Notes under the pieces: model-generated | Told to the model about the DNA's origin: nothing | The model's database searches: none | The model's input: only the letters and a program-made list of their open reading frames with translations | Shown: piece after piece, positions 26,567 to 40,427 of the stretch | Layout of the letters: every line of letters begins with the position of its first letter | How positions within the stretch are numbered: the stretch's first letter is position 1 | Translations under genes and position numbers: made by a program | Origin: Tenacibaculum tangerinum | GTDB lineage: Bacteria; Bacteroidota; Bacteroidia; Flavobacteriales; Flavobacteriaceae | DNA length: 64,000 bases | Reading direction: 5' to 3' | NCBI RefSeq assembly: GCF_029853675.1 | Contig: NZ_CP122539.1 | Location: 915,001 to 979,000 of the forward strand

Positions 26567-26589
26567 AAAAGAGGAAGTAAACTTCTTTT

Positions 26590-26692
26590 CGTTATCTCTC
26601 TGCAAATGCAGTAGAATGTAGCACCTTCTTTGTTTTCACAAAGGGTTGCTAAGGTTTCAAAGGGTCTATTCCCTCCACCTTTCTTGATAACA
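26590..26692 (-). ncRNA. SAM-I (S-box) riboswitch
   Basis: The minus strand carries the S-box core in order: P1 5' strand GTTATCAAGA, GGTGGAGGGA, ACCCTTTGAAACC, TTAGCAACC, a P3-P4 region, AAGGTGCTACATTC, and the closing P1 strand GAGATAAC that pairs with GTTATC. These are the conserved S-box segments (AGA…GAGGGA…GCCC.UGAA.CC..GCAACC…AAGGUGC.A.UUC…GAUAA). It lies 50-150 bases ahead of metH, the expected target. SAM binding should lower methionine synthase expression. Confidence 0.92.
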
Positions 26693-26713
26693 TCAATACG
26701 TTAATGAACGGCG

Positions 26714-31777: not shown

Positions 31778-31786
31778 AGAAGTAGG

Positions 31787-31979
31787 CATTCCATCGGGGT
31801 CGGTTACGCCTCCCTTGCGCCAGCTGGCTCGTTCGCTAAAAAGGTATACCATATCTTTTTTTTAACGCCCCGCAATCCAAGTTATATGCAAACGGTGACT
31901 TATCTAACTGTATTGGGCTTTCCTCCAACGGGTCTAGGTTAAAAAACCTTCCTAAGGTTGCATCGTAATTTCGCTGTTG
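31787..31979 (-). pseudogene. Remnant of an RHS-repeat core domain
   Basis: A minus-strand frame (31881-31979) reads RNYDATLGRFFNLDPLEESP then IQLDKSPFAYN. This is the RHS repeat-associated core signature (ARxYDPxLGRFxxxDPLA…SPYxYxxNNP), the segment before the variable toxin tip of RHS polymorphic toxins. It is preceded by a stop. After SPFAYN the frame is broken; in a shifted frame VTDPDGM (31787-31808) may be the usual DPDG continuation. No start, shell repeats or toxin tip remain. It suggests that a toxin locus once stood beside the cassette array. Confidence 0.65.
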
Positions 31980-32044
31980 CTACAATACTTAACAAACATT
32001 TTTCTATACAGATACGTACTTTTATCTTTATTATGGTTTGCTAT

Positions 32045-32182
32045 TACTCCCTTTAGGTAGTGAATACCACTCCCCTTACCGTCGGAGTGTCGCTCCCCTT
32101 ACCGTTGGAGTGTCACTCCAATTAGGCATGGAGTATCACTCCCCTTAGCATTGGAGTGTCATCATGATTAGGCTCGGGTCGT
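32045..32182. repeat. Six imperfect 23-bp tandem repeats with internal dyads
   Basis: Head-to-tail 23-base units start at 32045, 32068, 32091, 32114, 32137 and 32160. The middle four fit CACTCC-N11-GGAGTG/AT, so each can fold into its own hairpin. The outer two are decayed. The period is not a multiple of three, so this is not protein-coding. There are no unique spacers, so it is not a CRISPR. It could be a protein-binding repeat or a relic of a repeat-bearing mobile element. Confidence 0.8.
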
Positions 32183-32685
32183 CGTCCCGATAAAAAATGT
32201 GTCGCTTTTTATCTTTATTTTTTATATTTGGAAGGATATACGGTCGTAAAACCGTGGGCTTCTCCTACTTAAGAAGTAGTTGATGCGAAAGTGACAACCA
32301 CTAAACATGCCCAAATAGCAGCGACCTAAATAGCGGTATACAAATCGTTTATGACAAAAAAACTACTTTTATTACTTCTATAGCTGTGCTTATGGGATTC
32401 CGTAAGAATGTATGCACCGATTGTATTAAGTTTGTAGGAACAGTATAATTAATAGTAACTTATTTTAAGAACTTTATAATGTCGCATGCTTTTGTTGAAA
32501 TAAAAGCATGAACGTTTAACTATAACGAGTTAAAAACTATTAAAACTCAGAAATTAAAAACCCTTGTAATAGTTTAGAAAGAACAGTATATTTATTAAAA
32601 AATAACAGCACTAAAAATTAACAAAAAGTATCTTTATACCTCCAAATAGGTTGTATAAGAGTGCTAAAGGTATTTATATAAACAA
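32183..32685. other. Gene-free stretch before the cassette array
   Basis: About 500 bases with no credible gene. It contains a small hairpin CTACTT-AAG-AAGTAG near 32261 and short inverted repeats just before the array (AGCACT at 32607 with AGTGCT at 32660). The latter could belong to a degenerate attC or an attI-like site, but the arms are too short to call. Confidence 0.45.
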
Positions 32686-32692
32686 GTTGTGC
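32686..32692 (+). other. Left core site (R'-type GTTGTGC) of the array
   Basis: GTTGTGC with following CTC matches the complement of GAGGCACAAC at the end of cassette 1. It is the left recombination core of the array, 18 bases before the cassette 1 ATG. The sequence to its left has no convincing attC partner, so it could be an old attI or a decayed attC. Confidence 0.65.
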
Positions 32693-32709
32693 CTCATTAA
32701 AACTGAAAA

Positions 32710-34209
32710 ATGCTAATAGACGATATATTCAAAAAAATAAATATTCAAGACGGACATAGAGGCTACTATATGTTCGAAACCTTTATTCTTAATTTACTTA
32801 AAATTCATCTTGAAAAAGTAAAAAAACCATTTATCTCTCAACCTCGGAGAATTGGTTTCGATGCTTATGCACCTGAAGGTATTGAGGATATTGAAGGAGC
32901 TACTCAAATAGAGATTAAGTTTAATCTCGAAAGGTTTCCTATTAAACGTCTAATAGACCAGGTTATACATATTCAAGCTAAAATTAAAGAACCTGAACCG
33001 TTTGATAATCTACTAATAATTTCGCCTAATCCTATATCAAATAGATTTAAAAGCTATATACTTCATCGGATTGAAGACGAAAAATTACCTTTCAAAATTA
33101 TAGTTTGGGGACCTGAGGAAGTTAATAGTATAGTAGCGAAAAACCGAAAAGAAGCCAATACTATTGCCAACAACCTTTTCTCTTTAAGAATTGAATCTGC
33201 AGTTGTTCAATCCTCAAAGGATTGGGAAAAAGAAAGACAAGAAAAAATTGAATTATTAAATAGATTGTATAAAAAAGGACAATTTTCTTTCTTCCTTGGT
33301 GCAGGCGTTTCAAGTAGTGCAGGAATGCCTGATTGGAATACACTTTTAAATTCTTTATTCGTAACATATTTAACGAACGAATTTGATAATGAATCAAAAA
33401 TATTAGATACCGATATCGAGCAAATTGTTAATAGATTAAATCAAATTGATGAACCTTCTGCATTAATGGCGGCTCGGTATTTAAGAAAAGGATTAGATAA
33501 TAGGAACACAGAGTCCGAACAGTTTACAAAAACAATAACTGAAAATCTATATAAGTTACGTGACACAGGAAAAGCTATTGATTCAGAATTAATAAAAGCT
33601 ATTGTCGAAATGTGTATGCCTTTAAGAACAGGTGCAAAAGTAAAATCTGTTATAACATACAATTTCGATGACCTAATAGAAAGACAACTTGAATCACAAT
33701 CTATTCAACATCACAGCATTTATTCAGATAATGACTTCATAGATCCTGATGAACTACCTGTTTATCACGTTCACGGATTTTTACCAGAAAACACTGATGC
33801 TTATGAAGGATTAGAAAAAAGCACATTAGTATTTTCAGAAGAAGGATATCACTTAATTTATTCTGACTCATATCATTGGTCTAACCTTGTACAACTTTCA
33901 AATTTGAGAGAAAATCATTGCTTAATGGTAGGTTTATCAATGACAGACCCTAATTTGAGAAGACTTTTGGATATTGCTTCAAGAAATAGTGACAAAACGA
34001 GACATTTCGCTTTTATGAAAAGGTTGACTATTGATAATTTCATAGAATCAAAAGAAGGCACTGTAATAGATAATATAGATGGGGCAAAGAAATTTTTAGA
34101 TAGACATCATAATTTGAACGAAGAGATTATGAGAGAACTTGGTGTTTCAATTATATGGTATACAACTTATGATGAAATTCCGAAATTATTAAGAGAAATT
34201 AAAAAATAA
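32710..34209 (+). CDS. PD-(D/E)xK nuclease-SIR2 fusion, probable anti-phage effector (cassette 1)
   Basis: A 499-residue protein with two parts. Residues 1-150 look like a restriction-endonuclease fold: Glu23, Asp51 in RIGFDAYAPEG and QIEIK (Glu68-x-Lys70) fit a PD-(D/E)xK site. Residues 185-499 are a SIR2-like NAD-binding domain: FFLGAGVSSSAGMPDW (195-209), ITYNFDD (315-321), VYHVHGF (351-357) and MVGLSMTDPNLRRLL (406-420). SIR2 domains in Thoeris, DSR and Avs-type systems deplete NAD+ on phage infection. A nuclease fused to SIR2 as the only gene of a cassette suggests a stand-alone abortive-infection protein. Which domain senses and which kills is unknown. Confidence 0.75.
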   Translation: MLIDDIFKKINIQDGHRGYYMFETFILNLLKIHLEKVKKPFISQPRRIGFDAYAPEGIEDIEGATQIEIKFNLERFPIKRLIDQVIHIQAKIKEPEPFDNLLIISPNPISNRFKSYILHRIEDEKLPFKIIVWGPEEVNSIVAKNRKEANTIANNLFSLRIESAVVQSSKDWEKERQEKIELLNRLYKKGQFSFFLGAGVSSSAGMPDWNTLLNSLFVTYLTNEFDNESKILDTDIEQIVNRLNQIDEPSALMAARYLRKGLDNRNTESEQFTKTITENLYKLRDTGKAIDSELIKAIVEMCMPLRTGAKVKSVITYNFDDLIERQLESQSIQHHSIYSDNDFIDPDELPVYHVHGFLPENTDAYEGLEKSTLVFSEEGYHLIYSDSYHWSNLVQLSNLRENHCLMVGLSMTDPNLRRLLDIASRNSDKTRHFAFMKRLTIDNFIESKEGTVIDNIDGAKKFLDRHHNLNEEIMRELGVSIIWYTTYDEIPKLLREIKK

Positions 34210-34213
34210 CGAG

Positions 34214-34344
34214 GCACAACAATGGCTATAAGTAATTGCATGTTCAGGTATACTTCTAAAAATCCTCGCGGATTTTCAGTTTGGTGCGTACTTGCAAAGT
34301 TAAGTGCTAAACCACGCAACTACTCATAGCCGAGACCGTTAGGC
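34214..34344 (+). other. attC-like site 1 (131 bp)
   Basis: R'' GCACAAC (34214-34220), L'' GGCTATAAGTAATTGC, L' GCAACTACTCATAGCC, R' GTTAGGC (34338-34344). L'' and L' pair with mismatches and an offset base. Inside is a perfect hairpin AAAATCC-TCGC-GGATTTT (34259-34276), identical to one in site 5. It begins five bases after the cassette 1 stop. Confidence 0.85.
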
Positions 34345-34357
34345 ACAATTTTCAAAA

Positions 34358-35293
34358 ATGACAAAAGAAGAAAAACTAAACAAAATACTTAGCTGGTACT
34401 CTGAAGTGAATGAAGAGGAAACCAAATATCTTGCTACACAGGAGAACTTTCTTCAAGTTCATGAAATTGAGAAGTTAATAGGAGAAGCTATTCCGAAAGA
34501 TATTAGAGACTTCTTCAAAAAATATGATGGAGAATCTGGAAATGGATACGGCTCTTTTTTTGGACATTCATTTGTTAGTCTTAGCGAAATGAAAAACAGT
34601 CTTGATTTTGCTAAAACACAAGTAAAACCTGAAAAACCAAAAATAACTGACCCCAATAAGTCAAATAACTTAATTAAGCGGATTATACAACTTGTAGTTA
34701 ATGAACTTCCTTTAAAGAAAAAACTAGGATTTATCAAACCCAAATGGCACAAGGTGGAATTTGAAACTGGACCTGGTTCAATGGGAGGTCCATATTTTTA
34801 TTCAGACAAGAACACTTCTGATAAAGAACGTGAGATAGTAAAACTGAGCACCGAAACACGAAAGCGAATTTCACAATTCACAAAAGAACTTCACGAACTT
34901 GAAATTCAGGATTATAATTGGGATAATCTTGAAATTATAGCATACGGTGATGGGGAACATAAAATTGATAGAACATTCTACGATTTTGATAATACTTTAC
35001 CATTAACATCAACTCCAGAAGGAGCAATAAAAAAGAAGTATTTCCACATCAAATGGATTCCGTTGATATCGGATTATGGCGGGAATTACATTGGAATTGA
35101 TTTAGACCCTGATAAAAATGGGACAAAGGAGCAAGTTATTATCTTCGGAAGAGATGAGGAAGATATGATTGTTTTGGCTGACTCTTGGGATGAATTTCTA
35201 GATTGGAATCTTGATTTGATTGAGAAAAAAGGAGACAATCTAAAAAATGAAAGCCATTTACACGATATATATAAACAAATAAAAAGTGCCTAA
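34358..35293 (+). CDS. SMI1/KNR4 (SUKH) family protein (cassette 2)
   Basis: A 311-residue protein. The N-terminal 80 residues fit the SUKH/SMI1-KNR4 fold (IEKLIGEAIPKDIRDFFKKYDG, then GNGYGSFFGHSFVSLSEM). A second matching set lies near residues 225-290 (WIPLISDYGGNYIGIDLDPD, then GTKEQVIIFGRDEEDMIVLA, with a WDEFLDWNL tail). The GGNYIGIDLDP motif is typical of bacterial SUKH proteins, many of which are immunity proteins for polymorphic toxins. Between them lies an insert with many Lys and Pro residues. No cognate toxin is present, but an RHS remnant lies 2.4 kb upstream. The stop codon TAA (35291-35293) falls inside the R'' core of the next attC. Confidence 0.8.
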   Translation: MTKEEKLNKILSWYSEVNEEETKYLATQENFLQVHEIEKLIGEAIPKDIRDFFKKYDGESGNGYGSFFGHSFVSLSEMKNSLDFAKTQVKPEKPKITDPNKSNNLIKRIIQLVVNELPLKKKLGFIKPKWHKVEFETGPGSMGGPYFYSDKNTSDKEREIVKLSTETRKRISQFTKELHELEIQDYNWDNLEIIAYGDGEHKIDRTFYDFDNTLPLTSTPEGAIKKKYFHIKWIPLISDYGGNYIGIDLDPDKNGTKEQVIIFGRDEEDMIVLADSWDEFLDWNLDLIEKKGDNLKNESHLHDIYKQIKSA

Positions 35294-35354
35294 CAATGTG
35301 TAACAAATCATAGCACCCTGCGGGATGCTACGCTTGTTACACGAGACGTTAGGC
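35288..35354 (+). other. attC-like site 2 (67 bp, compact form)
   Basis: R'' GCCTAAC (35288-35294), L'' TGTGTAAC, inner stem with CCTGCGGG, L' GTTACACGA, R' GTTAGGC (35348-35354). It is close in length and design to the short attC sites of class 1 integron cassettes. R'' and R' match the RYYYAAC/GTTRRRY consensus perfectly. Confidence 0.9.
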
Positions 35355-35382
35355 ACAAGCTGAAAAAAGCACCATAAGAAAA

Positions 35383-35904
35383 GTGAGAGATAAAAATAGA
35401 ATTCCGAAAATACTGAATGAACTCGAACGGATTTGGAAATCTAATCCTGACTTTAGATTGGGACAATTAATTGTCGCTGGAGCAAAACCTAAAGAACCTT
35501 GTCCTGAAGTATTTTACATAGAAGATGAAGATTTGTTGGACGGACTTTTGAAATTTGACAAAAGAGCCGAATTGGACAATGAAAAACCGAAAATCGTTCA
35601 TGATTGGAAAATATTTTCGAATGTCAGTAGAATAGACCCAAAACAATTGACAACCGAATTATTGGAAAAACTGATATTTGAACTTAAAAATTCGGACAAA
35701 AAAATAGTCATTACGCCAATAAACCTAATGAAATTAAATGGAGCACCTGTTTCTGACCAAACTTGGTTATTGAATCAAAAACCGAGAATTAAAAAGCTGA
35801 AAAAGTTATTGATTGAACTTAAAGAAAATGGATTGTTGAATGAGAGAAAGTCGAAACAAGATTTTCTTGGGATTAAGGAAGTTGGATATGACATTGTGGA
35901 ATAA
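35383..35904 (+). CDS. YihD-like (DUF1040) N-terminal region protein (cassette 3)
   Basis: A 173-residue soluble protein, GTG start. The first 55 residues (RIPKILNELERIWKSNPDFR, then LGQLIVAG … EDEDLLDGL) resemble E. coli YihD/DUF1040 (…[24 protein letters not shown]…DLTDDILIYHL). The rest (VHDWKIFSNVSRIDPKQLTTE; KKIVITPINLMKLNGAPVSD) is not recognised. Function unknown. GTG is chosen because no in-frame ATG precedes the conserved part within the cassette. Confidence 0.6.
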   Translation: MRDKNRIPKILNELERIWKSNPDFRLGQLIVAGAKPKEPCPEVFYIEDEDLLDGLLKFDKRAELDNEKPKIVHDWKIFSNVSRIDPKQLTTELLEKLIFELKNSDKKIVITPINLMKLNGAPVSDQTWLLNQKPRIKKLKKLLIELKENGLLNERKSKQDFLGIKEVGYDIVE

Positions 35905-35912
35905 AAGCCAGT

Positions 35913-36043
35913 GCCTAACAATGGCTATAATTCATTGTGGTTTTGTGCCACACCAAAGTAAAAGTATAAATCAAACGGCTGGATTTCGGCGGAATAATCC
36001 TGCGGATGATTCCACAACGAAATCATAGCCTAGACCGTTAGCT
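35913..36043 (+). other. attC-like site 3 (131 bp)
   Basis: R'' GCCTAAC (35913-35919), L'' GGCTATAATTCATTGTGG, L' CCACAACGAAATCATAGCC, R' GTTAGCT (36037-36043). An inner hairpin GGAATAATCC-TGCG-GATGATTCC closes the 3' part. The eight bases before R'' (AAGCCAGT) recur before site 4, suggesting a shared cassette lineage. Confidence 0.85.
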
Positions 36044-36057
36044 ACAAGCTAAAAAAA

Positions 36058-36510
36058 ATGAGGAAGTTAATACTGATATTGTTTCTAACCTTAACAAGTT
36101 GCTCAATAAAAACGGAATTCTTTATTTACAATACAAGTGACGAAATAGTAACTATTGAATACCAATTTATTGAACCAAGTAAATTCGGAGGTTTTGTTTC
36201 TAATCCAGAAATGATGGAATCGAATTGGCTATCAAAACTTAAAGAAATTAAAAGTTCGGAATTGACTATTGATTTGACCAAAAAGCATGTTACTTGTAGA
36301 TTAAAAAAAGGGCAAGCCTTGAAATTAGGATGGATTGGAAACTATAACCCAAAATCTGAATATAAAAGACAAGAGTTGGCTGAAAACCTAAAAGAATTAA
36401 GAATTATTCGCAGTGGAAAAGAAACAATAATCATTACGCAAAAAGAAAAAGTTGCTGATTTCTTTGAGCGTGTGAATTCAAAGCGATATGAGATAAAAAT
36501 AAATGAATAA
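36058..36510 (+). CDS. Small lipoprotein, unknown function (cassette 4)
   Basis: A 150-residue protein with a lipoprotein signal (MRKLILILFLTLTSCS, lipobox Cys15). The mature part is beta-rich: KTEFFIYNTSDEIVTIEYQF, then a Lys-rich region ending FERVNSKRYEIKINE. No family recognised. It begins 21 bases into its cassette and is probably a membrane-anchored periplasmic protein. Signal-peptide proteins are common in integron cassettes. Confidence 0.65.
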   Translation: MRKLILILFLTLTSCSIKTEFFIYNTSDEIVTIEYQFIEPSKFGGFVSNPEMMESNWLSKLKEIKSSELTIDLTKKHVTCRLKKGQALKLGWIGNYNPKSEYKRQELAENLKELRIIRSGKETIIITQKEKVADFFERVNSKRYEIKINE

Positions 36511-36517
36511 AGCCAGT

Positions 36518-36651
36518 AGCTAACAACGGCTATAATCCATTGCTATGAAAGTGAAAAAACCTAACTTAGTATCAATTAACTTTGGCTTGATTCCTACTCT
36601 GAAAAATCTCCGATTTTTCGCCGCAACGGAATCATAGCCAAACCGTTGTAG
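36518..36651 (+). other. attC-like site 4 (134 bp)
   Basis: R'' AGCTAAC (36518-36524), L'' GGCTATAATCCATTGC, L' GCAACGGAATCATAGCC, R' GTTGTAG (36645-36651). Inner hairpin GAAAAATC-TCC-GATTTTTC. The last base of R' is also the first base of the GTG start of the next gene. Confidence 0.85.
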
Positions 36652-37439
36652 TGCATTTAAACAAAACGAATTTGGAATTACTAGAGCATATAATTTTTAA
36701 GAGATTTAAGACTGAAATTGAAAAAGCAGGATTGTCTATAAATCGAATTGACGAAGAGGGATTTTTATTCATTGAAAAAGACGATTTAGATTATAAAATA
36801 CATTTAGAAAACTCAATCCGAGATTTTGAATCTAACAAGAGTTTTCATACAGTTGATACTGTAATAAAAATTCTGACCGAACCTGAACCTGAAATCCCGA
36901 ATTGGAAAGAAGCGAAAGATTATATTTACTCATCTCTCGTTCCAAATGACTCATTTGACAAGTCAGATATTTTAAATCAAGAGTTCGACAACGATTTGAG
37001 TAAAATCTTTGTTTATTACCAGTCGGACTTAATCCATTGGATAACAAACTACCAATTGGAAAATTGGGGAATTGACACAAGTTTGATTTTTGAGCAAGCT
37101 GACTCAAATATTAATCGAATTTTAAATAAAACGGAACTGGAAATTCAAAATCTTGAAGGGCACAAATTGTGCTTTTTTGATACTGATTTTTTTATGAAAT
37201 CAGAGTTATTATTAGCTACTGATTTAAAAGCAAAAACGAAAAAGGAAATTGGATGGCCAATTTATTGTGTTTTTCCAGTAAGAGATTTCATTTATATGTT
37301 TGGGAAAAAGGATTTTGAGTATTTTACAAACCGTATTGGAAGTATAGTAATTGAGGAATATGAAAATACCCAATATCCAATAACAACTGGAATTTATGAA
37401 ATTGGAGATAAAGGGTTTGAGTTAAAAGGAAAATATTAA
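36651..37439 (+). CDS. Unknown 262-residue protein (cassette 5)
   Basis: Soluble, acidic N-terminal half (IDEEGFLFIEKDDLDYKIHL), then a C-terminal half reading KLCFFDTDFFMKSELLLATD … WPIYCVFPVRDFIYMFGKKD … EYENTQYPITTGIYEI. The layout faintly recalls YtpQ/DUF1444 proteins (a phage-neighbourhood family), but I cannot confirm it. The GTG start at 36651 sits on the attC core. The next in-frame candidate is a TTG seven codons later, and no ATG occurs in the first 190 codons. The start is therefore uncertain. Confidence 0.55.
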   Translation: MHLNKTNLELLEHIIFKRFKTEIEKAGLSINRIDEEGFLFIEKDDLDYKIHLENSIRDFESNKSFHTVDTVIKILTEPEPEIPNWKEAKDYIYSSLVPNDSFDKSDILNQEFDNDLSKIFVYYQSDLIHWITNYQLENWGIDTSLIFEQADSNINRILNKTELEIQNLEGHKLCFFDTDFFMKSELLLATDLKAKTKKEIGWPIYCVFPVRDFIYMFGKKDFEYFTNRIGSIVIEEYENTQYPITTGIYEIGDKGFELKGKY

Positions 37440-37447
37440 AAAACGCA

Positions 37448-37577
37448 CTACAACACCGTATAAAATTAATTGCTAGTGCAAGCTTGCTTACGAAAATCCT
37501 CGCGGATTTTCTATTTGGTTTGTATTTACTCAATTAGTTGCTGAAACACGCAACTAACTTTATACCAAACGTTGTAT
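37448..37577 (+). other. attC-like site 5 (130 bp)
   Basis: R'' CTACAAC (37448-37454), L'' CGTATAAAATTAATTGC, L' GCAACTAACTTTATACC, R' GTTGTAT (37571-37577). It shares the 18-base hairpin AAAATCCTCGCGGATTTT (37493-37510) and the nearby TTTGG with site 1, though the L arms differ. Confidence 0.82.
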
Positions 37578-37605
37578 GCAATGACCAAAAACCTCTGAAC
37601 AATCG

Positions 37606-39360
37606 ATGAATATTAAGGAAATAGAATTAACAAACATAAAAGGAATTCAAAATGAAATATTTCCTTTGAATCTAATTCCTAACAAACCCAGCATTTTTGT
37701 TGCACCGAATGGATTTGGTAAAAGTTCAATAGGTATTGGATTCGATTCTCTAAAACCAAAGAAAATTGAGTTAGATGAAAAATCATATTTTGAAAATAAT
37801 GATAGCAATCGACCTGAACTAAAAATCACAATTACCGAAAACGGAACGGAACAAACACTAATAGCGAACGACACACAAAATACTATCAATGATGTTTTTG
37901 ATGTATTTGTAATAAATAGTCAAGTTGTTTCTAAAGCAACATCTCAGCGTTATGGAGGAAGAACAATTACAAGGTCTTCATTAGAAATTGAACCGACAAT
38001 CTTTGTTCCTCGAATACCAAACAAAGTACATTTCAATTATTCAATATCAGCTGAAAAGAAAGATTTTGGTTCAAATGGCAAATTGTTAGAAAGAATAGAG
38101 AATATTTTATATAATCCACAAGTTCAAAGGTTAATAGCTCACGAAATTAATCTTGACAAATTTGGGCAAGTAAAAATTGGAAAATACATATCGGATTATA
38201 AAACTTCAATTAACCAATTATCTGGAACATCAGAATCAATAAAAAGGCAAGTAAACGACAATCCAATAGAATCTATTCTTGATTGTGATGAATTCATAAA
38301 ACTTCGTGATATAGTCAAATCTTTTGGCTTCGCGAATGCCAGTACCGATTTTGAATGCAATCTTGTTGCCATTCAAATAATTTCAACTTATCATAAAACA
38401 GGAAAAACCCAATATAGAAAGGCTTGTAATTACATCTATTATTCAGAGTATAAAGACGAAATTACAAGAATGATAAGTGACTTTAATACAACCAGATTTA
38501 GAATAGTACCGAAAGAAGACAAGAAAAAGGGTTTAATGGTTAATTGGCCAAAGGCTCATCAAATGTCTAATGGACAAAGAGATATTCTTTCTTTTGTTAC
38601 TCTAATGATGAAATCCCGTAGTTCATTTCAAAAAGAAAATTGTATTTTAATTATAGATGAAGTATTTGATTATTTAGATGATGCCAATTTAGTTTCATTT
38701 CAATATTTCATAACAAATATGATTGAGGAAATGCAATCTCAGAATAGGAATTTCTTTCCTATTGTTATGACTCATTTAGACCCTAATTATTTTAATCATT
38801 TTTGTTTTAATAAGCACAAATTAAAAATTAGGTACTTAAAGGAACAGCAAGCCAAAGCAAGTCAGAGAATTTTAAATTTAATCTACAATAGAGAAAATCC
38901 ATTAATTAAAGCTAATGTTGATAAATATTTCTTTCATTTTCACCCTAATCAAATAGATATATCTACCGATTTTGAAACATTAGGACTGAATAAATCTTGG
39001 GGAAATTCTCAAAAGTTCTTAAATAAGATTTATCGGGAAATGACAAAATACATAAATGGTCAAGAAAAATACGACCCAATAGCTGTTTGCTTCGCTCTAA
39101 GAAAAGTTATAGAAATGAAAGTCTATAAATTAATCAAGGGTCAAGCTGAAAAAGATAAGTTTTTAGATATTAATGGAACAAAAAAGAAATTGAATTATTC
39201 TCAACTCATAGGAATTGATGTGCCAGAGATTTTTTTCTTGTTAGGAATAATCTATAACACCTCATTGCATTTGTATGTTGGACAAGATATATCGCAACCT
39301 TTAGCACAGAAACTGAATAATTTAACAATTAGAAATCTAATAACTGAAGTATGTACATAA
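37606..39360 (+). CDS. ABC/SMC-type AAA ATPase (cassette 6)
   Basis: A 584-residue protein with a RecF/OLD/SMC-like ATPase. N-terminal IKEIELTNIKGIQNEIFPL, Walker A APNGFGKSS (33-41), a signature-like MSNGQRDILSF (about 325), Walker B CILIIDEVFDYLDD (346-359) and a switch-His motif MTHLDPNY (about 390). The C-terminal 180 residues are helical and unrecognised. Such cassettes and operons often encode phage-defence ATPases paired with a nuclease, but no partner is fused or adjacent here. Function is inferred only at that level. The coding frame fills the whole cassette, which is unusually long. Confidence 0.7.
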   Translation: MNIKEIELTNIKGIQNEIFPLNLIPNKPSIFVAPNGFGKSSIGIGFDSLKPKKIELDEKSYFENNDSNRPELKITITENGTEQTLIANDTQNTINDVFDVFVINSQVVSKATSQRYGGRTITRSSLEIEPTIFVPRIPNKVHFNYSISAEKKDFGSNGKLLERIENILYNPQVQRLIAHEINLDKFGQVKIGKYISDYKTSINQLSGTSESIKRQVNDNPIESILDCDEFIKLRDIVKSFGFANASTDFECNLVAIQIISTYHKTGKTQYRKACNYIYYSEYKDEITRMISDFNTTRFRIVPKEDKKKGLMVNWPKAHQMSNGQRDILSFVTLMMKSRSSFQKENCILIIDEVFDYLDDANLVSFQYFITNMIEEMQSQNRNFFPIVMTHLDPNYFNHFCFNKHKLKIRYLKEQQAKASQRILNLIYNRENPLIKANVDKYFFHFHPNQIDISTDFETLGLNKSWGNSQKFLNKIYREMTKYINGQEKYDPIAVCFALRKVIEMKVYKLIKGQAEKDKFLDINGTKKKLNYSQLIGIDVPEIFFLLGIIYNTSLHLYVGQDISQPLAQKLNNLTIRNLITEVCT

Positions 39361-39368
39361 ATCACTGC

Positions 39369-39516
39369 ATACAACAACGGTAGCTGATGCACAACCCCCA
39401 AATTTCAAAGAATAGAATTTATTTTAAAGCTATGTAAGGTCTTTATTTAGACGAAGCCAAAATTTTTAACCCCTTATTTTGTTCTTTTAGAAAGCTTACA
39501 ACAAAAGATGTTAAGT
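39369..39516 (+). other. attC-like site 6, 3' half decayed
   Basis: R'' ATACAAC (39369-39375) with TGC before it pairs exactly with the start of cassette 6 (GTTGTATGCA), so this end is secure. The 3' half is not. The best candidate R' is GTTAAGT (39510-39516), which fits GTTRRRY. GTAGCT near 39381 could pair with AGCTTAC (39493-39499) with one bulge. The remainder of the gap to 39746 holds only the IS-like end described next. Confidence 0.5.
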
Positions 39517-39540
39517 AATAGCGTGCATTTTTTTTGACAT

Positions 39541-39569
39541 CCCCAAAAAACAGGACAGTTATAAATTAT
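39541..39569 (-). mobile_element. IS-end-like sequence (solo)
   Basis: On the minus strand ATAATTTATAACTGTCCT, then G, six T and GGGGA. The same 18 bases followed by A, five T and GGGGA occur at 62167-62195 on the plus strand. This looks like a terminal inverted repeat of an IS (IS3-like in style). No transposase lies beside either copy. It marks the right edge of the cassette array. Confidence 0.45.
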
Positions 39570-39746
39570 CATTTACGAACGTCGAATCCGAACTGTTACC
39601 ATGAAAAGCAACAAAAAGTGCTATCAATCTATACAACCAAACAAGATTACATGTATCTTTAAACTTTAAAACACCGAATATGATATGTGAGTTATCAGGG
39701 TAAAATCAATTTTTAACCTGTAGCCATATTTCAGGACTAGACAGTC

Positions 39747-40427
39747 TTGCATGCATATACATGTTTTGAGGCTGAAAACGGAAAAGAAGCTTTAGACATA
39801 CTTTCTAAAAAGGAAACTGATATCGTGATTACCGATTACATGATGCCTGTAATGAATGGTTTGGCCTTCATTGAAAAAATTAGAGAAAAAGAAATTAACA
39901 TTCCTATTCTAATGCTTACGGCTCGTTCTGACTCTAAAAGTAAATTACAAGTGCTACGCTTAGGAATAGACGATTACATGAACAAACCTTTTGAAAAAGA
40001 AGAATTGCTCATTCGAATACAAAATGCTCTTAAAAATAATGCTACTCGAACAGCCTTTATTAAGTTAAACACTATTGATAAAAAAGAATTACATCAAAAT
40101 ACTTCATGGATTAAAAATGTAAAAGATTTTATTTACCAAGAGTGTTCAAATACGAATATGACACAAGAAGATGTTGCATCTCATTTCAACACTTCTAGAA
40201 GTTCTTTGATTAGAAAGATAAAAGCTAAAACTGGATTAACCCCTAACCAATTTATTACTGAAGTTAAACTTCAAAAAGCACACTATTTAGCCGAACAAGA
40301 CCCCACCATACTTCTAAAAACCTTAGCTTTAGAAGTTGGCTATTTGTACCCTACCTATTTTTCTAAAATATATACACAACGTTTTGGTATACCTCCTGTA
40401 TATAAAAACAAAAAGAGAGTCAATTAA
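39747..40427 (+). pseudogene. Truncated receiver-AraC regulator (3' end of a hybrid two-component gene)
   Basis: Residues 1-95 are the back two-thirds of a receiver domain (EAENGKEALDIL; phospho-Asp in VITDYMMPVMNG; ILMLTARSD; DDYMNKPFEKEEL). Residues 125-220 are an AraC-type DNA-binding domain (DVASHFNTSRSSLIRKIKAK; GYLYPTYFSKIYTQRFG). The first beta strand and the acidic pair of the receiver are missing. An in-frame TAG lies nine bases before the first possible start (TTG at 39747). It is most likely the tail of a hybrid sensor kinase cut off by the event that placed the array or IS here. Without the acidic pair it should not be phosphorylated normally. Confidence 0.75.

Follow-up and report, generated by a model that had tools for sequence, protein, structure and literature searches.

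A gene-cassette array with an attI-type site in Tenacibaculum tangerinum, likely joined by a tyrosine recombinase without the IntI-specific domain

The cassette array and its attI-type site

The window analysed here is a stretch of 64 kb (genome positions 915001-979000) within the single-contig genome of Tenacibaculum tangerinum, which comprises 3,610,406 bases. It contains an array of six co-directional gene cassettes at positions 32686-39375, which is preceded by an attI-type site and interrupted by hairpin-type attC sites (Table 1). Each cassette carries one gene, and the six genes (32710-39360) all lie on one strand. The two ends of each unit, counted from the G of GTT, are exact complements of 9-10 nucleotides (nt). 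An earlier note made from the sequence of the window had placed six same-strand cassette-like units here, and the exact complementary ends found in all six bear it out. It had also described the array as lacking an integrase, in agreement with the absence of a recombinase match from the 64-kb window. Of the span it gave (32686-39516), the start holds, whereas the end does not, as the last arm stops at 39375 and is followed by a repeated element.

Complementary GTT...AAC pairs of at least 9 nt at a distance of 200-2500 bases are not rare on their own, with 49 on the plus strand of the window, and a general complement detector that also asks for hairpins found two further pairs elsewhere in the window. 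The pattern is nevertheless beyond chance, for the five hairpin sites that connect the six units share a geometry, and the rule is kept across genomes. Each of the five attC sites consists of AAC, 3 nt, the L stem, a loop, the partner of the L stem, 5-6 nt and GTT. Among 20 aligned sites of this genome, 8 of the 12 predicted L-stem pairs show pair-keeping changes on both sides. No Rfam family matched inside the array. Moreover, a second genome of the genus (G175) carries a cassette homologous to cassette 1, with 78% identity from GTT to just past AAC and a compensatory change at the ends 1.5 kb apart (GTTGTGCCTC/GAGGCACAAC versus GTTGTACCTC/GAGGTACAAC). In other genomes of the genus, the matches listed fall on the attC stretches of the window array and leave its genes uncovered. 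The sequence of attC 1 had matches in three plasmid records and none among phage records.

About 134 bases in front of cassette 1 recur as five further copies in the genome, four at 93-99% and one at 78% identity. The six attI copies are alike up to ...TATAAACAAG^TT (AAACAAG^TT, with the caret at the predicted crossover) and all diverge directly after it, which indicates that one insertion point received a different first cassette at each of the six places. The copy beside mutS2 directly follows a tyrosine recombinase gene and includes its last codons; judged by sequence alone, an attI with insertion at G^TT adjoins the recombinase, in this genome as in the relatives. Between four of the six copies, similarity also covers 417-995 bases farther upstream, with interruptions. 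In the window copy, this upstream repeat contains a series of ggagtgtc/actcc motifs at about 32060-32160. Given the attI-type site and the remaining 3' end of a recombinase gene in front of it, the window array appears to be a platform from which the recombinase has been lost.

At the mutS2 locus, 13 linked cassettes lie downstream of the recombinase on its strand: 12 of them, with ends complementary over 8-10 nt, occupy the stretch between 240.3 and 226.4 kb, and one further cassette in front starts at the attI crossover 241,139 (ends of 10 nt). The recombinase is the only match of its family in the genome at an expectation value (E) of 1e-40, and its nearest named relatives are Tenacibaculum proteins of 64 and 72% identity. 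Its open frame spans 318 amino acids (aa) and is lost after HTLRHSFATH, before the catalytic tyrosine, the remainder being readable in another frame. The XerA-type model NF040815 (cut-off 220 bits) scored 133.7 bits on an open reading frame (ORF) that has no C-terminus owing to the frameshift. Since this is the one member of the array-associated family found in the genome and its frame breaks ahead of the catalytic tyrosine, we predict that the window array can no longer move.

A covariance model of the sites (R1), built from 20 sites of this genome, matched it at 82 places at E up to 1 and at 75 places at E 0.001 or less, 20 of which are the training set. The orientation of the sites looks zoned, with minus at 88-505 kb, plus at 736-1514 kb except for a pair at 1348-1349 kb, minus at 2958-2965 kb and plus at 3214 kb. 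In addition, genome positions 842608-842832 (L002) retain the C-terminal part of another tyrosine recombinase, distinct from the first but similar in kind, and are followed by attC matches, mostly weak, at 844-860 kb; this region is possibly a decayed integron.

Table 1. Features of the cassette array and its flanks, in window positions unless marked as genome positions.
Feature	Position	Strand	Remarks
Repeated stretch upstream of attI	31786..32551	+	partly common to three other attI platforms, 417-995 bp aligned, 88-97% identical
Recombinase gene 3'-end remnant	32552..32577	+	aligns with last codons of mutS2-locus recombinase
attI-type site	32578..32688	+	predicted crossover between G32686 and TT32687-32688; six genomic copies
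Cassette 1	32687..34338	+	10-nt complementary ends; homologous cassette in G175 with same two ends
Complementary ends, unit 1	32686/34220	+	10 nt
Gene 1	32710..34209	+	499 aa; SIR2-like domain; nearest PADLOC models ThsA, LmuA
attC 1	34211..34347	+
Cassette 2	34339..35348	+	complementary ends
Complementary ends, unit 2	34338/35294	+	9 nt
Gene 2	34358..35293	+	311 aa; SMI1/KNR4 (SUKH) protein
attC 2, short form	35285..35357	+
Cassette 3	35349..36037	+	complementary ends
Complementary ends, unit 3	35348/35919	+	9 nt
Gene 3	35383..35904	+	173 aa; no family match
attC 3	35910..36046	+
Cassette 4	36038..36645	+	complementary ends
Complementary ends, unit 4	36037/36524	+	9 nt
Gene 4	36058..36510	+	150 aa; no family match
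attC 4	36515..36654	+
Cassette 5	36646..37571	+	complementary ends
Complementary ends, unit 5	36645/37454	+	10 nt
Gene 5	36651..37439	+	262 aa; GTG start; no family match
attC 5	37445..37580	+
Cassette 6, to end of R'' arm (AAC 39373-39375)	37572..39375	+	complementary ends
Complementary ends, unit 6	37571/39375	+	10 nt
Gene 6	37606..39360	+	584 aa; SMC/RecF-like ATPase; weak PtuA match
Repeated element in place of last attC	39376..39743	+	left edge is AAC of R'' arm in five aligned copies; ends GGACTAGACA
Other copies of this element	genome 92723(-), 85853(-), 1309663(+), 1310557(+)

Arrays beside recombinases in the relatives

In the family Flavobacteriaceae, the recombinase was found in 95 of 149 genomes at E 1e-40 and R1 sites in 133 of 149 at E 0.001; the listed sites span at least 50 kb in some of these genomes (G113, G068). 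One same-family genome has a recombinase that does not differ from that of Algibacter onchidii in the columns compared. We hand-picked 20 loci of relatives among the recombinase matches for having sequence downstream. A plain site rule, which fixes the GTT and the AAC, gave 156 sites downstream on the recombinase strand, none upstream and one on the opposite strand, the shuffle expectation being about 0.9. The first crossover, located by a rule that requires complementarity at 8 of 10 bases and A at position 11, lies 26-135 nt past the stop codon of the recombinase in 14 of the 20 loci. These 14 have two kinds of attI, either ATATAA..C..AG^TT-like or with an inverted repeat before ^TT.

The ends of neighbouring cassettes in the 20 loci are complementary over at least 8 exact bases in 104 of 126 pairs, counted without neighbours more than 3000 bases apart; the same complementarity occurs in 5 of 156 comparisons within one attC and in 48 of 1428 other pairs. 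Removal of the 16 neighbours with under 8 of 10 complementary positions left 110 cassettes, a filter that does not involve position 11. At this position the ends face each other as A.C in 100 cassettes, A.G in seven and A.A in three, whereas positions 12-14 pair in 93, 97 and 88% and position 15 in 15%. The arm formed by the cassette ends is thus composed of 10 bp, an A.C mismatch at position 11 and 3 bp. In the window, five of the six cassettes have A.C and one has A.A. On the bottom strand, A.C turns into T.G. In the modelled site of the circular cassette, the bottom strand folds better in 109 of the 110 cases, by 4.6 kcal/mol on average, compared to 662 of 880 dinucleotide shuffles (mean 1.3 kcal/mol). 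We propose that the mismatch at position 11 may set the choice of strand. The classical core sequences are seen in few of the sites, GTTRRRY in 13 and RYYYAAC in 11 of 156.

A scan of named genomes covered 80 loci, 55 of which had a recombinase match that was mapped. The order of recombinase followed by sites was observed in Algibacter, Flavobacterium, Algoriphagus, Aquiflexum, Winogradskyella, Seonamhaeicola and Rufibacter, and by R1 in Zunongwangia. The 55 mapped loci together have 43 sites downstream, none upstream and two on the opposite strand; the remaining 25, unmapped, gave one match, in L163. On recombinase relatives from Sphingobium and other Proteobacteria, Firmicutes and one methanogen, R1 gave no match. 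Two contigs labelled Spirochaetota (L136) and Undinarchaeales (L144) carry recombinase relatives, the former with one rule-based site downstream; it is possible that both are mis-binned. The 405-kb plasmid pPP2 of Persicobacter psychrovividus (L047) has 33 site matches on one strand within 40 kb, among mostly hypothetical genes.

The recombinases occur in two forms. The long form measures about 370-395 aa, including an additional N-terminal portion, and is co-directional with the array in the 20 loci. The short form has 272-281 aa in six loci; in two others, counted from the first ATG, it has 306 and 330 aa. It is divergent from its array, with all 28 rule-based sites of these eight loci lying upstream on the opposite strand and the R1 matches likewise, and it uses the same type of site as the long form. 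Ten loci had been picked for this count and eight were counted; L256, left out, has a long form with one site match upstream on the same strand, and L257, also left out, has a gene with a stop and six sites downstream on its strand.

The recombinase and IntI in Bacteroidota

A search of this genome with the IntI family model TIGR02249 gave no match over the cut-off. The earlier note had named a tyrosine recombinase with the IntI-specific patch as a thing to search for; the recombinase associated with the arrays is patchless. The K box and the HxLRH motif are 107 residues apart in 11 of 11 IntI proteins (one of 12 IntI loci gave no usable ORF), compared to 65-66 in 23 of 23 family members, 20 of which are from array loci. 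The array-associated recombinase is without the IntI-specific stretch, of about 42 residues. Foldseek returned the IntI-VCR structure 2a3v as the best match of the recombinase. VIA-align aligned the pair too, over residues 84-355, that is, without the N-terminal 80 residues. In a separate comparison with IntI4, residues 176-243 of the latter stayed unaligned against 25 residues of the recombinase. Residues R219, K244, H308, R311, H334 and Y343, which we take to be the catalytic set, are invariant in alignment A5. The extra N-terminal part of the long form amounts to about 85 residues. In the excerpt available of PMC3053210, eight IntI residues are named as reading the extrahelical bases in the IntI-VCR structure; six of them (K209, Y210, W219, P232, H240 and H241) belong to the segment missing from the present recombinase, if the chain numbering is that of the paper. 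A tree built by a quick method, with the approximate likelihood ratio test SH-aLRT as its only support measure, grouped the patched IntI rows with L171 and L187 (support 100), apart from all other rows. It gives nothing firm on whether the patched or the patchless form is the older.

We further compared the occurrence of sites and recombinases in 247 genomes of the phylum, using the IntI cut-off, E 1e-6 for the sites and E 1e-45 for the patchless recombinase. IntI was over its cut-off in 70 genomes (one of the same class as T. tangerinum and none of the same family), sites were found in 60 and the patchless recombinase in 79. Of the 60 site-bearing genomes, 38 have the patchless recombinase (odds ratio 6.2, Fisher p 8e-9) and 16 have IntI (odds ratio 0.9, p 0.87), the latter being the chance level. 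Ten of these 16 also carry the patchless recombinase and six do not.

R1 found no sites in ten IntI loci (186.6 kb); two of the genomes concerned (G342, G386) have sites elsewhere. A chain detector reported chains of 4-10 cassettes in five of the ten loci, and chains of at least four in 22 of 100 shuffled strands as well, and just the two long chains (10 and 9 cassettes) were used. End pairing in the IntI-locus chains decays smoothly, with 62% at position 11 and no A.C block there, in a profile that pools all chains and, complementarity being symmetric, both strands; neither the chain detector nor the complement and hairpin detector tells strands apart. In 20 IntI genomes, R1 at E up to 1 gave matches in three; as these genomes were chosen after the site results had been seen and none is among the 16 with sites, the low count is partly a matter of selection. 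One of the five matches (G267) lies 2.0 kb and one (G434, E 0.07) 0.8 kb from a patchless recombinase, and the remaining ones, two in G267 and one in G263 (E 0.6), lie near no known patchless recombinase. As an IntI genome that has a patchless recombinase with a site match 2.0 kb away, G267 indicates that both systems can share a genome.

Competing explanations, cargo and significance

We consider it highly probable that the window holds an attI-type site and six cassettes whose capture and joining were the work of a tyrosine recombinase that has no IntI-specific domain. In the mechanism that we propose, a cassette would circulate as a closed circle, in which its two ends adjoin and form, on the bottom strand, an arm of 14 positions (10 bp, the conserved mismatch and 3 bp) together with the inner L stem. 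The recombinase would then cut at G^TT and join the circle to attI or to another attC. The attI copies, the cassette ends, the attC sites and the position of the recombinase beside such arrays in relatives are observed features; movement of the cassettes along these lines is inferred.

Several points weigh against this explanation. No recombination has been observed, and the local recombinase at the mutS2 locus is broken by a frameshift. R1 was trained on this genome, with five of its 20 sites from the window itself, and its E-values are rough. In the phylum, 22 of the 60 site-bearing genomes have no recombinase match at E 1e-45, and 41 of the 79 recombinase genomes no site match at E 1e-6. 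A downstream rule-based site is present in just 14 of the 55 mapped named loci; although many contigs stop short, 10 kb without a site follow in several cases (Mesonia, Pontibacter and others). Moreover, the two R1 matches at one long-form locus (L146) lie upstream on the other strand, the patchless recombinases do not form one supported clade, and the last site of the window (39376-39743) is no normal attC.

The anatomy of the array, with its G^TT crossover, R'' and R' arms and single-gene cassettes, is that of integron cassettes, and IntI is over the cut-off elsewhere in the phylum (70 of 247 genomes), as would be seen had classical IntI integrons made and moved the cassettes and left them stranded here, with the patchless recombinase of relatives as a bystander. 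This origin is improbable: no IntI is over the cut-off in this genome or in any same-family genome of the sample, the site matches are unassociated with IntI in the 247 genomes, and R1 found no sites in the 186.6 kb of the ten IntI loci. Stranded IntI cassettes were dropped as a candidate on these three observations. In addition, GTTRRRY and RYYYAAC occur in only 13 and 11 of the 156 sites, and in 14 of the 20 loci a gap of 26-135 nt separates the patchless recombinase from the first cassette that follows it. The attC interiors are BLAST-similar across species and the genes between them mostly are not, which would agree with a passive shuffling of attC-like repeats by homologous recombination, the recombinase having no role. 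However, homologous recombination within a repeat of 120 nt would not account for the exact G^TT breaks in the six attI copies, for the complementary cassette ends with their covariation or for a recombinase gene immediately ahead of cassette 1 in 14 of the 20 loci, and such shuffling is hardly likely as the source of the arrays.

Inverted repeats between unrelated genes could also be the hairpins of terminators, repetitive extragenic palindromic (REP) sequences or miniature inverted-repeat transposable elements. Such elements give no complementarity between the start and the end of a unit, and they would not sit solely downstream of a recombinase (156 sites downstream, none upstream), which makes this the least credible explanation, with a negligible chance of being right. 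Terminators and REP repeats were dropped on the end complementarity of matched neighbours in the relative loci. This test and the one-sided position of the sites uphold the argument of the earlier note that terminators or REP repeats do not give such covariation, and the complementary ends in 104 of 126 neighbouring pairs sustain its reading of the locus as an array of integron type.

The array and its recombinase family resemble the classical integron in having attI beside a recombinase, tandem single-gene cassettes with a G^TT crossover and complementary ends, hairpin attC sites with R and L arms whose bottom strand is the better folder by prediction, and a recombinase core fold like that of IntI-VCR. 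They differ from it in the missing IntI-specific domain, in a core consensus that is not RYYYAAC/GTTRRRY and in the end pairing of 10 bp, a mismatch and 3 bp in place of a gradual decay. The long form also has its extra N-terminal part and is co-directional with the array in 20 loci, whereas classical intI is usually divergent from its array. With several attC-type sites and no adjoining recombinase gene, the window array resembles a cluster of attC sites lacking integron-integrases (CALIN), having five sites and no recombinase match in the window, yet an attI-type site and a recombinase tail precede its first cassette. Unlike XerA/XerH, the recombinase lies beside arrays of many hairpin sites, has up to four matches per genome (G125) and in its long form carries the about 85 extra N-terminal residues. 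The many cassettes (75 sites here, 33 in 40 kb of the Persicobacter plasmid) recall the sedentary chromosomal integrons of Vibrio type; here they are spread over at least six attI platforms on one chromosome.

In the excerpts available of the cited papers, integrons are defined by an IntI with an additional domain (PMC9668308, PMC2426708), this domain is treated as necessary for recombination and serves IntegronFinder to recognise integrases (PMC9668308), and the attC core sites are given as GTTRRRY and RYYYAAC (PMC3053210). The system described here falls outside this definition of a classical integron; its parts suggest that it works like one. Likewise by excerpt, Bacteroidota are listed among the phyla with integrons (PMC8618304), the IntegronFinder 2.0 paper names Salinibacter (PMC9024848), an attC taxonomy study gives models for eleven taxa, among which Bacteroidota do not appear (PMC8352920), and a Tenacibaculum genome paper that used IntegronFinder reports no integrons in the part available (PMC10013915). 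We recognised no description of patchless integron-type recombinases in Bacteroidota in the open literature, subscription papers and preprints lying outside this scope.

The cargo genes were scanned against Pfam, PADLOC and NCBIfam, which gave no match for genes 3-5. The nameable products, a SIR2-like protein, a SUKH protein and a PtuA-like ATPase, resemble those of anti-phage defence or immunity genes, a guess from the family names. The element that follows cassette 6 is about 370 bp long, is present in at least five copies in the genome, replaces the attC that ends some cassettes and in some copies stops immediately ahead of an ATG; genome positions 213567, 214792, 858196 and 1312364 have related GTAGCTGATGC elements. 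Beyond it, positions 39747-40427 encode a response regulator and an AraC domain and resemble the 3' end of a larger gene, which may have been cut by the array. Elsewhere in the window, an S-adenosylmethionine (SAM) riboswitch lies at 26589-26693 on the minus strand.

Altogether, we think it fairly probable, as one joint proposition, that Bacteroidota carry a second integron system, separate from IntI, with long co-directional and short divergent recombinases; that its hairpin attC is read without the IntI domain, the strands being told apart by the mismatch at position 11 that becomes a T.G wobble; and that standard integron searches would miss it though its sites occur in most Flavobacteriaceae. 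With R1 sites in 133 of 149 genomes of the family, the system is not marginal. If this is true, hairpin sites are served without the IntI domain, and the origin of that domain and of strand choice would become directly testable. A large reservoir of cassette genes, with defence-like cargo in the present array, would be going uncounted, and Bacteroidota would run their own version of a major gene-swapping system.

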